A stretch of 64,000 nt of DNA from Alkalidesulfovibrio alkalitolerans DSM 16529 (GTDB taxonomy: Bacteria; Desulfobacterota; Desulfovibrionia; Desulfovibrionales; Desulfovibrionaceae), in contig NZ_ATHI01000032.1 in the NCBI RefSeq assembly GCF_000422245.1, positions 62,001 to 126,000 of the forward strand, written 5' to 3'. Shown piece after piece: positions 1 through 15,684 of this stretch (position 1 is its first letter; each line of letters starts with the position of its first letter). The notes below the pieces were generated by a model. It was not told the origin of the DNA. It did not search any database and saw only the letters and a list, made by a program, of their open reading frames with translations. Position numbers and translations under genes: made by a program.

Positions 1-205
1 CCAGGTCATCGACCTGAACCTGCCGCCGAGCCTGGTCTTCGAAATCGTCCAGACCGAACCCGGCGTGCAGGGCGACCGCGTGGGCAACACCACTAAGGCC
101 GCAACCCTCAATACGGGCATCGTGGTCCAGGTGCCTTTGTTCATCAACGAAGGCGAACAGATCAAGGTCGACACCCGCAGCGGCGAATACATCAGCCGGG
201 CGTAG
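1..205 (+). CDS. efp: Elongation factor P, C-terminal part (cut by window edge)
   Basis: The last 67 residues of an elongation factor P, read in the frame starting at base 2 and ending at TAG 203-205. EF-P binds the ribosome next to the P-site tRNA and relieves stalling at polyproline stretches. The visible part holds the final OB-fold domain, with the typical [13 protein letters not shown] and [23 protein letters not shown] signatures of that domain. The start, including the lysine that is modified in many species, lies outside the window. The stop is immediately followed by the AGGAGGG ribosome binding site of ftsK, so the two genes are probably co-transcribed. Confidence 0.95.
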
Positions 206-220
206 GAGGGTAGGGCTACG
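204..220 (+). promoter_or_regulatory. Strong ribosome binding site upstream of an in-frame ACG (ftsK start)
   Basis: AGGAGGG at 204-210 overlaps the efp stop codon and is followed after 7 bases by ACG 218-220, in frame with ftsK. No ATG, GTG or TTG lies in this frame between the efp stop and GTG 269. The spacing is ideal for an initiation codon at 218, so this site decides the proposed start. Confidence 0.6.
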
Positions 221-2644
221 CAGGGACGCACTTTCCTGCGCGAACTGCTGGCCCTGGCCGCCCTTTTCGTGGCGGCCTTCCTGGGGCTCGCCCTGGCCAG
301 CTACTCGCACCTGGACCCGAGCATCAACCGCGTCGTTAGCCAAGGGCATGAGCTTGGCAACATGGCGGGGCTCGTCGGAGCCTACGCCTCAGGTTTGCTC
401 GTGGACTTTTTCGGCGTGGCCGCGTGGTTTTGGCCGCTTCTTTTCCTTTACTTCGCGGCCGCCAGCCTCACGGAACGGGTCTCCCTCGCCTGGTGGCGCT
501 GGGTGGGCATCGTTCTCGTGACCGTGAGCGTCATGACCTGGGCCGAGTCGGCCACGTTCAAGGCCTCCCTGGCCCTTGGCGGCGTGGTCGGGGGTGGTCT
601 GTTCGGCACGCTGCTGTTCGGCGTTTCGCAGACGCTTTTGCGCCCCTTGGGTGCTGGACTCGTCTGGCTTTTCCTTTTTCTTTTCGGCCTGCAACTGGCC
701 ATCGGGGTGTCCTGGTCGAACGCCTTGCGAAGGCTGCGCGACAATATGCAAGGCGCGGCTCAAAGCCCCAAGGAGCGAAGCGTGCGCAAGGGGCGAAAGC
801 CCCTCGCGTCAGACGACGACGAGACCATCGACGTCGCGCCCGTGGGCGGCAGGCGCGTGACAGGCATCCCGCCGCCTCCGGAGGCCGACACCCCAGTGGT
901 ATTCGATGCGCCCGGGCTTTTGGGCCGCACGGCGCGCGAGGTTTCGCGCGTTCCATCGGGCGAGGGCGGTTCTTCCCGTGGTGGCGACGACCTTTTTTCC
1001 TTCCCTTCGCTGTTCGGGCGCGAACGCGACGAGGAGAAGATGGAGGAGCCAAGTTTTGCCTTCGAGAACGAGGAAGCACCCTCTATTGAATCCGTTGCAG
1101 ACGATTTTGCCTTCGAAGACTTCGTTGAAGAGCCCAGGGAGGCTTCCGACGCGTCCGCGCCTGCGGCCGTCAAGGCGAAGTCCAGGCCTTCGAAGTCACG
1201 CCCGGCCAGGACTCCTGCGCTTCCGCGCATCGACCTGCTGAGCCCGGTCGTGCAGACGCGTTCCCCCTTGGACAAGGAACGCCTGAAGGCCATGGCGCTC
1301 GATCTGGTGAGCTGCCTGTCCGACTTCGGAGTCAAGGGCGATGTCACGGCCATCAAGCCCGGCCCCGTGGTGACCATGTTCGAGGTCAAGCCCGCGCCCG
1401 GCACCAAGATCAGCCGCATCGCGGGGCTGGCCGACGATCTGGCCCTGGCCATGAAGGCCCTGGCCGTGCGCATCGACGCCATTCCCGGTTCGGACGCCGT
1501 GGGCGTGGAAATCCCCAACGAGACGCGCGAGGGAGTGGCCCTGCGCGAGATATTCGAGTCCGAGGCCTTCAAGGGCGCGCCCTCCAAGCTCGCCCTGGCC
1601 CTGGGCAAGGACATCCAGGGCCGGGCCTACGTGGCCGACCTCGCGCGCATGCCCCACCTGCTCGTGGCGGGCGCCACGGGCGCGGGCAAGTCCGTGAGCC
1701 TGAACACGATCCTGCTCTCCCTTCTCTACAAGGCCACGCCCGACGAGGTGAAGCTCCTGCTCGTGGACCCCAAGCGCATCGAGCTTTCCGTCTATGCCGA
1801 CCTGCCGCATCTGGTGCATCCGGTGGTCACAGAGATGCCCCTGGCCAAAAGCGCCCTGGAGTGGGCCGTGGCCGAGATGGACCGCCGGTATCAGGCCATG
1901 GCTCTTCTGGGCGTGCGGAACATCGAGAGCTACAACCAGAAACTCCCCCAGGCGGACATCGAAGCCAAGCCCCAACTGGCCGAACTCGCTCCCATTCCAT
2001 ATCTGGTTATCATCATCGACGAGCTTGCCGACTTGATGATGACCGCAGGCAAGGAAGCCGAGATGAGCATCGTGCGCCTGGCCCAGCTCGCCAGGGCGGC
2101 CGGAATCCATCTCATCCTGGCCACGCAGCGGCCCAGCGTGGACGTGGTCACGGGCCTCATCAAGGCCAACTTCCCCACGCGCCTGTCTTTTCAGGTCACG
2201 AGCAAACACGACTCGCGGACCATCCTGGACATGGGCGGGGCCGAACGGCTCCTGGGCAGGGGCGACAGCCTTTTCAAGCCCAGCGGCGGCAAGGTGGTGC
2301 GCGTGCACGGCGCTTACGTGGACGAGGAGGACATCGCGCGCGTGGTGGACCATTGGCGTGCGCAGTGCCCGCAGAGCTTCGAGGTGGATTTCGAGGCCTG
2401 GGCGCAGGAGCAGGCCGGGGAGGCCGTGGAGGGCGAACCAGGGGCTATGGATGCAGACCCCATGTACAGGGAGGCCGTGGAGTTCGTTTCGGCCCAGGGA
2501 AAGGCCTCCATTTCACTGCTCCAGCGGCGTTTCCGCATCGGCTTCAACCGTGCGGCCCGCTTCATCGAGCAGATGGAACTCGATGGCATGCTCGGTCCCC
2601 AGGAAGGCGCAAAGCCCCGCGCCGTGCTGCGAGGCCGGGAATAA
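218..2644 (+). CDS. ftsK: DNA translocase FtsK (start probably a non-canonical ACG)
   Basis: Septum-anchored DNA pump that clears and aligns chromosome ends at division and activates XerCD recombination at dif. The N-terminus is membrane-embedded with about four hydrophobic segments. A charged linker of roughly residues 185-350 follows, then the RecA-like motor with Walker A GATGAGKS (coded near 1667) and Walker B IIIDELADL (near 2010), and a C-terminal winged-helix gamma domain (RRFRIGFNRAARFIEQME). The first ATG/GTG/TTG in frame is GTG 269, but that start cuts into the first membrane helix (FLRELLALAALFVAAFLG, coded from 233). AGGAGGG at 204-210 lies 7 bases before an in-frame ACG at 218, which would give 808 residues. 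I therefore place the start at ACG 218. GTG 269 (791 residues) is the fallback. Confidence 0.93.
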   Translation, partial: TQGRTFLRELLALAALFVAAFLGLALASYSHLDPSINRVVSQGHELGNMAGLVGAYASGLLVDFFGVAAWFWPLLFLYFAAASLTERVSLAWWRWVGIVLVTVSVMTWAESATFKASLALGGVVGGGLFGTLLFGVSQTLLRPLGAGLVWLFLFLFGLQLAIGVSWSNALRRLRDNMQGAAQSPKERSVRKGRKPLASDDDETIDVAPVGGRRVTGIPPPPEADTPVVFDAPGLLGRTAREVSRVPSGEGGSSRGGDDLFSFPSLFGRERDEEKMEEPSFAFENEEAPSIESVADDFAFEDFVEEPREASDASAPAAVKAKSRPSKSRPARTPALPRIDLLSPVVQTRSPLDKERLKAMALDLVSCLSDFGVKGDVTAIKPGPVVTMFEVKPAPGTKISRIAGLADDLALAMKALAVRIDAIPGSDAVGVEIPNETREGVALREIFESEAFKGAPSKLALALGKDIQGRAYVADLARMPHLLVAGATGAGKSVSLNTILLSLLYKATPDEVKLLLVDPKRIELSVYADLPHLVHPVVTEMPLAKSALEWAVAEMDRRYQAMALLGVRNIESYNQKLPQADIEAKPQLAELAPIPYLVIIIDELADLMMTAGKEAEMSIVRLAQLARAAGIHLILATQRPSVDVVTGLIKANFPTRLSFQVTSKHDSRTILDMGGAERLLGRGDSLFKPSGGKVVRVHGAYVDEEDIARVVDHWRAQCPQSFEVDFEAWAQEQAGEAVEGEPGAMDADPMYREAVEFVSAQGKASISLLQRRFRIGFNRAARFIEQMELDGMLGPQEGAKPRAVLRGRE

Positions 2645-14026: not shown

Positions 14027-14536
14027 TCAAGGCTCCTGATAGATGCGCCGCCCTTCGCACCTGTGTGCAAGGCGCGAGAGCGCCTCCGTCGCCGTCTCCC
14101 CCCAGGGAAGCCGCAGATCGGGAGCGATCTCGGCTAGCGGGGCGAGCACAAAGGCCCGCTGCCGCATCCTCGGGTGCGGGATGGTCAGTTCCTCGTCCTC
14201 GACAGCGAGATCGCCGAAAAGCAGGATGTCGATGTCCAGGGTGCGTGGCCCGAAGCGGACCGTGCGTTCACGTCCGAATTCGTCCTCGATGGACCGCAAC
14301 GACCGCAACAGGTCATGCGGTCCGATGTCCTCGCCGCAGAAGACCTGAAGCACGCAGTTGGCGAACCAGGGCTGCTCGCGTACGTCCTGCGGCTCGGTCT
14401 GGAACACGGACGAAACCATCCCCGGCGTAATGCCGGGGATGGCTGCGATCCGCTCCATGGCGCGGGAAAGAAGGGTCTCGGAATCGCCGATGTTCGATCC
14501 CAGGCCCAGATATGCCGCTACAGGGCCGCGATGCGT
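14027..14536 (-). CDS. folK: 2-amino-4-hydroxy-6-hydroxymethyldihydropteridine pyrophosphokinase FolK (start probably ACG)
   Basis: Transfers pyrophosphate from ATP to hydroxymethyl-dihydropterin in folate synthesis. The family signature AYLGLGSNIGD lies upstream of the first in-frame ATG (14458). The pterin/ATP-site motifs RFGPRTLDIDIL and IPHPRMRQRAFVLAPL follow. Starting at ATG 14458 would delete the essential N-terminal strand. The only good initiation site is GAGGAGG at 14550-14544, 7 bases before an in-frame ACG at 14536-14534, giving 169 residues, a normal FolK length. No ATG, GTG or TTG lies between that site and 14458. The start overlaps the dapL stop by 19 bases. Confidence 0.9.
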   Translation of the reverse strand, partial: THRGPVAAYLGLGSNIGDSETLLSRAMERIAAIPGITPGMVSSVFQTEPQDVREQPWFANCVLQVFCGEDIGPHDLLRSLRSIEDEFGRERTVRFGPRTLDIDILLFGDLAVEDEELTIPHPRMRQRAFVLAPLAEIAPDLRLPWGETATEALSRLAHRCEGRRIYQEP

Positions 14537-15684
14537 GATACGGCCTCCTCCAGCCTGTCGCTGGGCACGGTCAGCGAGATGCGGAAGAAGCCCTCGCCCG
14601 GCGCGCCGAAGCCGTTGCCCGGCGTAACCACCACGCCGGTCTTCTCCAAGACCTCCGTGCAGAAGGACGTGGAGGTCTTGCCCTGCGGCACCTTGGCCCA
14701 GACGAAGACCGAGGCTTTGGGCACGCGATGCTCAATGCCGACCTTGGACAGGGCCGCGCACACGCTGTCGCGCCGCTCCCGGTATATCTTGCGGAACTCG
14801 GCGACGTAGGGCGTGCCCTTGGAGAGCGCGGCGATGCCCGCTTCCTGCACGGCCTGGAACGCGCCGGAATCGACGTTCTCCTTGACCTTGCCCAGTCCCT
14901 GCACGAGCGAGGGGTTGCCGACGGCCATGCCGATGCGCCAGCCCGTCATGTTGAAGGTCTTGGAGAGGGAGTGGAATTCGATGGCCACGTCCTTGGCCCC
15001 TTCGAACTCGAGGATCGAGCAGGGCTTGTCCTGCTCGTCGAAGTACATCTCCGTGTAGGCCGCGTCGTTGACGATGATGGTGTTCGTCTCCCTGGCCCGG
15101 GCGATGAGCTTCTTGTAGAACTCGGGCGTGGCCGTGGCGGCCGTGGGATTGTTGGGATAGTTGACGAAGATCATCTTGGCGCGCTGCCAGGATTCCTCGG
15201 AGATGGCGTCGAGATCGGGCAAGAAGTCGTTGGCGTCGGTCAGGGGCACGAATTCGACCTGACCGCCCGCGAAATTCACGGCGATGTTGTAGACTGGATA
15301 GTTGGGCGTGCAGACCAGGGCCAGATCGCCGGGATTGATGAAGGCGATCGGAAAGTGGGCGATGCCTTCCTTGGAACCGATCAAGGTCAGGACTTCGTTT
15401 TGCGGGGCAAGTTCGACGCCGAAGCGCTTGCCGTACCATTCGGCCACGGCCTCGCGGAAGCTGAGCATGCCGATGTAGGAGGGGTACTGGTGGTTGGCGG
15501 GCTTTTTCGCGGCTTCGTGCAGCGCTTCGATGATGAAGTCGGGGGTCGGCATGTCGGGATCACCGATGCCCAGGCTGATGATATCCACTCCTCTCGCCTT
15601 GACGGCCGCCTTGGCCTTGTCGATGGCGGCGAAGAGATAGGGAGGCAGCGTGGCGAGTCTGTCAGCGAACGGGAAGTCGGCCAT
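14518..15684 (-). CDS. dapL: LL-diaminopimelate aminotransferase (class I/II PLP aminotransferase)
   Basis: Converts tetrahydrodipicolinate directly to LL-diaminopimelate with glutamate as amino donor, a shortcut in lysine and peptidoglycan precursor synthesis. The 388-residue protein starts MADFPFADRLATLPPY. It shows the fold-type I motifs SLGIGDPDMPTP, NYPNNPT, the PLP lysine in SLSKTFNMTGWR (about Lys242) and the phosphate-binding Arg of FFRISLT. This form is common in deltaproteobacteria and fits lysA and lysC elsewhere in the window. A related alanine- or aspartate-type transaminase is the alternative. It leads the run with folK, the YHS protein and talC, and a good promoter lies 54 bases upstream. 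Confidence 0.85.
   Translation of the reverse strand: MADFPFADRLATLPPYLFAAIDKAKAAVKARGVDIISLGIGDPDMPTPDFIIEALHEAAKKPANHQYPSYIGMLSFREAVAEWYGKRFGVELAPQNEVLTLIGSKEGIAHFPIAFINPGDLALVCTPNYPVYNIAVNFAGGQVEFVPLTDANDFLPDLDAISEESWQRAKMIFVNYPNNPTAATATPEFYKKLIARARETNTIIVNDAAYTEMYFDEQDKPCSILEFEGAKDVAIEFHSLSKTFNMTGWRIGMAVGNPSLVQGLGKVKENVDSGAFQAVQEAGIAALSKGTPYVAEFRKIYRERRDSVCAALSKVGIEHRVPKASVFVWAKVPQGKTSTSFCTEVLEKTGVVVTPGNGFGAPGEGFFRISLTVPSDRLEEAVSRIAAL
14534..14550 (-). promoter_or_regulatory. Strong ribosome binding site upstream of an in-frame ACG (folK start)
   Basis: On the minus strand GAGGAGG (14550-14544) is followed by 7 bases and ACG (14536-14534), inside the end of dapL. It is the only plausible initiation site that keeps the conserved FolK N-terminus. 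The arrangement mirrors ftsK. Confidence 0.6.

Follow-up and report, generated by a model that had tools for sequence, protein, structure and literature searches.

Conserved AUC and ACG codons as putative near-cognate starts of folK and ftsK in the Desulfovibrionaceae

Introduction

Where does translation of folK begin when its reading frame offers no canonical codon ahead of the first strand of the enzyme? This is the question raised by the dapL/folK junction of Alkalidesulfovibrio alkalitolerans DSM 16529, which lies in the window analysed here, a stretch of 64,000 nucleotides (contig NZ_ATHI01000032.1, positions 62,001 to 126,000 of the forward strand). Near-cognate starts in bacterial chromosomes are known for a handful of genes, mostly with AUU or AUA. 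A preliminary description of the window proposed that folK and ftsK both start at ACG, and that the lineage may tolerate such initiation.

Results

The putative folK start lies within the end of dapL

The features of the junction are as follows.

14027..14539, minus strand: coding region of folK (HPPK), taken to begin at the AUC candidate; a start at ACG 14536 gives 169 aa
14537..14539, minus strand: ATC, near-cognate start candidate of folK, conserved in 3/3 genus members and in 49/74 overlaps without a near canonical start
14534..14536, minus strand: ACG, second near-cognate start candidate of folK, in 51/74 overlaps and in 25/25 of those without ATC
14544..14551, minus strand: doubled Shine-Dalgarno sequence GGAGGAGG, inside dapL, with GGAGG at 14551-14547 and again at 14548-14544
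14518..15684, minus strand: dapL, LL-diaminopimelate aminotransferase (NF006756 and TIGR03540 above cut-off), its last codons overlapping the folK start
14520-14518, minus strand: dapL stop TAG, which reads GTA in the folK frame
14456..14458, minus strand: earliest ATG in the folK frame, from which the enzyme would be incomplete

Read at -1 relative to dapL, folK begins inside the last part of that gene and ends at 14027 on the minus strand. The open frame has 234 codons, 91 of which come before the first canonical codon, and it contains no ATG, GTG or TTG between the upstream stop and ATG 14458, so the earlier claim that folK lacks a canonical start ahead of its N-terminal strand is confirmed. 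A start at ATG 14458 had been expected to give a dead protein, and the match from there indeed begins only at HPPK profile position 30, with positions 1-29 and the AYLGLGSN strand gone. Counted from ACG, FolK has 169 residues and covers the HPPK model completely (profile 1-116 of 116), matching PF01288 with 124.2 bits (cut-off 25.7) and TIGR01498 with 122.5 bits (cut-off 54.1; positions 1-128 of 128). Of the 28 matching solved HPPK sequences 23 align from query residue 6-8 on, that is, a few residues past the proposed start. A search of the A. alkalitolerans genome found one folK.

On the minus strand the junction carries GAGGAGG (14550-14544), a 7-nt spacer CCGTATC (14543-14537) and then ACG (14536-14534), exactly as first described, including the resulting protein length. 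The full order is, however, GGAGGAGG CCGT ATC ACG. The ATC (14539-14537) sits directly 5' of the ACG, and GGAGG occurs in two overlapping registers, so that ATC 14539 and ACG 14536 each have one copy 7 nt ahead of them; the preliminary description named only ACG and missed both the ATC and the second register. No AUG, GUG or UUG in folK would give an intact protein, and both candidate codons are one mismatch from AUG and at Shine-Dalgarno distance. Which of the two is used then? In both same-genus genomes (G001 and G002) the ATC is kept and is followed by CCG and GCG in place of ACG, and since they keep ATC without ACG, we consider AUC 14539 at least as likely to be the folK start as ACG 14536. 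We therefore treat AUC as the conserved candidate in this organism and ACG as a second, possibly additional one.

Near-cognate codons at the putative folK start among relatives

FolK matches were found in 93/99 relatives and in 205/206 family genomes. The junctions compared cover part of these 205 genomes and were picked mainly from genera known to have the overlap. The sample of 183 loci was reduced to 99 distinct ones after removal of 64 without dapL found alongside and of 20 duplicates; one more (L169) lacked the dapL motif and was removed as well, leaving 98 scored loci, made up of 80 overlaps and 18 others. The FolK motif was positioned by eye in L226, L233 and L255. In genus g41, the FolK matches of G117, G142, G155 and G157 each contain one internal TGA, where the alignment probably runs past the stop.

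All 80 distinct dapL/folK overlaps share the frame relation seen in A. alkalitolerans, and in 74 of them the stretch from the Shine-Dalgarno region to the FolK motif offers no canonical start, a proportion that is not a family-wide frequency, given how the junctions were picked. Every one of these 74 has ATC at the position of 14539, ACG at the position of 14536, or both: ATC alone in 23, ACG alone in 25 and both in 26. The pattern is complementary. Where ATC is replaced (by GTC in 18 overlaps and GTT in 7), ACG is present in 25/25, whereas among overlaps with ATC it is present in 26/49, and in the 23 ATC-only overlaps the second codon is free to be CAG, TCG, CCG or GCG. A folK start at ACG is thus supported for the overlaps that lack ATC, while within the genus of A. 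alkalitolerans it is ATC that is conserved and ACG that is not. The motif AGGAGGC is found in 67/74 of these overlaps; in the ATC-only ones the closest GGAGG is merely 4 nt from the codon, below the usual distance. Canonical codons elsewhere in the frame were not scored as starts, namely a GTG two codons inside the FolK motif in six of the 74 (L087, L102, L105, L109, L239 and L255) and, in 22 of the 74, some canonical codon at least 61 codons upstream, deep within dapL.

The 74 overlaps come from 21 coded genera, one of them from another family (f5) of the order, together with some named records possibly from genera already counted. ACG-only overlaps occur in nine coded genera and ATC-only overlaps in eight; the junction of Nitratidesulfovibrio oxamicus (L159) is ACG-only.

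The frame relation allows for a different reading, in which programmed -1 frameshifting produces a DapL-FolK fusion and folK needs no start codon at all. The two genes overlap with folK in the -1 frame of dapL, and an internal Shine-Dalgarno-like GGAGG can stimulate frameshifting. Nevertheless, no slippery heptamer was noticed when the overlap sequences were read by eye, and an AUC-or-ACG rule is unlike the pattern of a slippery site. Moreover, relatives with canonical starts or with separate genes need no fusion, and ftsK (see below) would be left unexplained, so that we regard frameshifting as highly improbable.

What happens when a canonical start is available? Six overlaps have one: an ATG in L225, and in five others (L083, L093, L100, L259 and L262) a GTG overlapping a TGA dapL stop. 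Four of the six carry neither ATC nor ACG, and two carry one. Likewise, among the 18 loci without such an overlap, 16 have neither codon, L088 and L240 having ACG. In L259 (G234) and L262 (G230) the TGA stop gives folK its GTG with the ATC still kept, possibly a recent switch. Genus g26 keeps ACG where there is no near canonical start (L226, L231, L232 and L233) and has lost it where an ATG is present (L225, G251) or where folK lies away from dapL (L227, G250). In L091 (G007), folK lies ~257 nt past dapL, with no canonical start in the 24 codons before the motif.

The five GTG cases resemble the familiar GTGA/ATGA overlaps, the commonest coupling geometry (PMC10666635). They could suggest that FolK is made by termination and reinitiation at the codon overlapping the dapL stop. 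In A. alkalitolerans, however, the canonical start that these five relatives have there is absent, the TAG stop giving GTA. Neither GUA nor the CUA or AUA found at the same place in relatives is a usual start. Further, in contrast to GTGA/ATGA overlaps, 74 of the 80 have no near canonical start and show instead a near-cognate codon five or six codons upstream. Reinitiation leaves unexplained why ATC or ACG is present in 74/74 of these overlaps and yet absent from 4/6 of those with a canonical start, and we consider it very unlikely as the route to FolK.

Probable selection on the candidate codons

Two dapL codons provide, with their third bases, the A's of ATC and ACG, which allows the conservation to be set against codon usage. 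In the upstream dapL segments GTA makes up 12% of Val codons, TCA 8% of Ser codons and TTA 2% of Leu codons; despite the rarity of these synonyms, one of the two third-base A's is present in 74/74 overlaps. Across 90 neighbouring dapL codon pairs from these same sequences, used as a control, the corresponding frequency is on average 23% and at most 76%, against 100% at the folK start, and at most 34% when both codons are of the fourfold type. On the best dapL tree (95 rows, three of the 18 non-overlapping loci being from other phyla and left out; 96 columns, many forks unresolved) the near-cognate type changes at least 14 times, while the state with neither codon occurs in 0/74. Fisher values for the overlaps are descriptive and, since the sequences are related, overstate significance. 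A test on independent pairs typically gave 3 for and 0 against, too few pairs for significance (sign test p at least 0.25). Conservation of the near-cognate codons exceeds what codon usage and protein constraint would give, with the relatedness of the rows controlled in part only, and the codon comparison indicates that ATC or ACG at the putative folK start is preserved by selection.

Could the selection act on something else? Since both reading frames are constrained by the overlap, the conserved third-base A might serve an RNA element or a codon effect in dapL, with the near-cognate codons a by-product. This appears scarcely probable to us. The A shifts between two positions in such a way that ATC or ACG is always present, and 16/18 dapL genes that do not overlap folK lack both. 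RNA structure predicted at the junction is ordinary (z -1.23), not significantly stable, as is also the case at the ftsK start (z -1.54). Finally, ftsK has its ACG without any overlap with dapL.

The ftsK start

The second gene at issue is found at the beginning of the window.

218..2644, plus strand: ftsK coding region, counted from ACG 218-220, 808 aa
205..209, plus strand: GGAGG, Shine-Dalgarno sequence of ftsK, 8 nt before ACG 218
203..205, plus strand: in-frame TAG 5' of ftsK, which rules out an earlier start
218..220, plus strand: ACG, putative start codon of ftsK, found in 38/72 distinct loci

After TAG 203-205 the frame continues GAG GGT AGG GCT ACG, and the earliest canonical codon is GTG 269, a start from which would reduce the FtsK_4TM match to profile 16-170, against 3-170 from the ACG. 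The 7-base geometry that ftsK was said to share with folK holds: the distance to the ACG is 7 nt when counted from GAGGG and 8 nt when counted from GGAGG.

We compared 72 distinct ftsK loci (out of 100 entered, drawn from some of the 199 matching genomes). The aligned start column contains ACG in 38 of them, from 17 genera, and a Shine-Dalgarno-like motif precedes it in 37/38; downstream in ftsK, ACG accounts for 107/381 Thr codons. In 12 of the 38, A. alkalitolerans among them, there is no canonical codon from the upstream in-frame stop to the ACG, although three of these (L201, L207 and L210) have a TTG or GTG five codons downstream of it. The remaining 26 have some canonical codon further upstream, so there the ACG is assigned as the start on conservation and spacing. 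Where the column is Thr but not ACG (ACA in L204, ACT in L217), an ATG is close by. CTG occupies the column in four loci, of which L198 (G039) and L275 (G198) have no upstream canonical codon. L271 (G174) has AAG after a Shine-Dalgarno-like motif, with a TTG further upstream, and L065 (G063), from another family of the order, has ATG. The CTG of L198 and L275 and the AAG of L271 add to the near-cognate codons seen in this column. The other loci have some in-frame canonical codon upstream or close to the N-terminus. This distribution in a gene of its own independently supports ACG as a probable start.

An ACG in both genes brings to mind C-to-U editing of the mRNA as in plant organelles, which would turn ACG into AUG and so provide folK and ftsK alike with a normal start. 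Such editing cannot work on the AUC-only folK overlaps (23/74), nor on the CTG of ftsK in L198 and L275, and we know of no C-to-U editing of this kind in bacteria. We regard it as extremely improbable. The four alternatives considered here and above are weaker because none of them predicts the AUC-or-ACG rule, its frequent loss alongside a canonical start and the ftsK pattern together.

infC and a scan for further cases

The gene infC is the classical near-cognate case. It has an apparent AUA, AUC or AUU start in 22/28 loci, those placed by motif, A. alkalitolerans included, whereas 6/28 loci were not placed by motif. In A. alkalitolerans (L321, G000:C26, ~475.6 kb) an apparent ATA start follows GGAGGGATGAGCT, and relatives have ATA, ATC or ATT. 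The same way of reading the sequences therefore recovers a known kind of positive, and the lineage seems to use near-cognate starts.

Is this then a general property of the lineage? We scanned contig C32, minus a 2-kb gap, against stretches of the two same-genus genomes (128 conserved genes in the first pass, 123 in the second), and in addition 53 kb of C26 with 12 conserved genes. The first pass raised 42 flags and the second 35 in C32 and 1 in C26. They were sorted by eye, most being shadow frames or normal starts, and ftsK, folK, prfB and infC remained; the folK result is that of the first pass, as a shadow frame displaced the folK frame in the second. In prfB, for release factor 2 (L288, ~14585, G000:C32:140585), the PCRF and RF-1 domains were confirmed; the gene has what appears to be its customary +1 frameshift site at an in-frame TGA. 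Scanning turned up a single tRNA-Met (L287), which lacks the GGG/CCC anticodon stem and resembles an elongator when read by eye.

Among the ~135 conserved genes of C32 and part of C26, no near-cognate start beyond ftsK, folK and infC was judged real, in a scan that is blind to near-cognate starts with a canonical codon upstream in frame. Near-cognate starts therefore look gene-specific rather than due to a generally relaxed start rule and, within the limits of the scan, their use looks rare. The proposal that the lineage may tolerate ACG is accordingly supported for two genes (ACG in 38/72 ftsK loci, ACG alone in 25/74 folK overlaps), while the general relaxation that it might imply was not seen in the genes scanned.

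Discussion

Taken on its comparative evidence, it is very likely that folK starts at AUC 14539, at ACG 14536 or at both, following GGAGGAGG inside dapL, that ftsK starts at ACG 218, and that these codons are under selection across the Desulfovibrionaceae. The comparison shows open frames that lack a canonical start, the position of the Shine-Dalgarno sequences, and which codons are present, how well they are conserved and how they complement each other; from these we infer initiation itself, its weakness, an N-terminal Met and sensitivity to IF3. The initiator tRNA would pair imperfectly with AUC, at the third base, or with ACG, at the second, and the strong Shine-Dalgarno sequence would hold it in place there; translation of FolK and FtsK would begin with Met. 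Inefficient initiation may then result in low, steady amounts of both proteins. We propose that the near-cognate starts probably keep folK and ftsK expression low and that initiation at them is possibly sensitive to IF3.

Conserved near-cognate starts as a kind are already known. E. coli pcnB is reported to have an inefficient AUU start, thought to limit expression (Binns and Masters 2002, as cited in PMC13009471 and PMC9410913). As far as this goes, folK and ftsK may be alike in having an inefficient start codon of that presumed effect, while the codon and the genes differ. A close parallel is infC, also with a near-cognate start after a Shine-Dalgarno sequence; in E. coli it is autoregulated, IF3 reportedly restricting initiation at the AUU of its own gene (PMC9410913). 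There are two differences: infC has third-base mismatches only, whereas the folK and ftsK candidates include ACG with its second-base mismatch, and FolK and FtsK do not directly control the choice of start codon. In Staphylococcus aureus, ccpN (AUA) and cvfC1 (AUU) have conserved non-canonical starts with strong Shine-Dalgarno sequences, a likeness to the present cases; reporters gave ~10% of the AUG level in poor medium and, for ccpN AUA, up to 30% in rich medium (PMC13009471). Those two starts were demonstrated by ribosome profiling and reporters, whereas the folK and ftsK starts are predicted by sequence comparison. A start enclosed by the tail of a neighbouring gene and served by either of two codons, as proposed for folK, is not among the traits described for ccpN and cvfC1 in the passages considered, and the word ACG is absent from the main text of that paper (PMC13009471).

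According to an in vitro survey, IF3 accepts nothing but Watson-Crick pairing at the first two codon positions and also rejects the weaker pairs at the third (PMC10158994). This argues against efficient use of ACG and less so against AUC, and makes the ACG cases the surprising part. Another study (PMC10303841) concerns an artificial AUC mutation. Among the matches listed from openly licensed literature, none described ACG as a natural start in bacteria or dealt with folK or ftsK starts in Desulfovibrionaceae, and likewise none described a family-wide ACG start or an AUC/ACG start kept by the synonymous codons of an overlapping gene.

Why should these particular genes have such starts? It is conceivable that infC, folK and ftsK are on near-cognate codons so that their output tracks initiation fidelity. 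Scarce IF3 or plentiful formylated initiator tRNA would make near-cognate starts fire more and, since the folate made by FolK supplies the formyl group of initiator tRNA, folK would stand in a feedback loop with initiation, while FtsK would tie division to the same signal and ACG would be a regular, selected bacterial start. We consider this extended reading unlikely, in contrast to the start assignments themselves.

If the assignments are true, the conserved ACG in ftsK (17 genera) and AUC-or-ACG in folK (~21 genera) would widen the bacterial start-codon rule. NCBI table 11 does not include ACG among its start codons, so gene finders based on that table would probably misplace the starts of folK and ftsK. 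ACG starts would also fit poorly with the intolerance of second-base mismatches reported in the in vitro survey cited above (PMC10158994). The complementary AUC/ACG pattern, in which the codons of one gene may preserve the start of the next, would offer a clean comparative route to near-cognate starts in overlapping genes.
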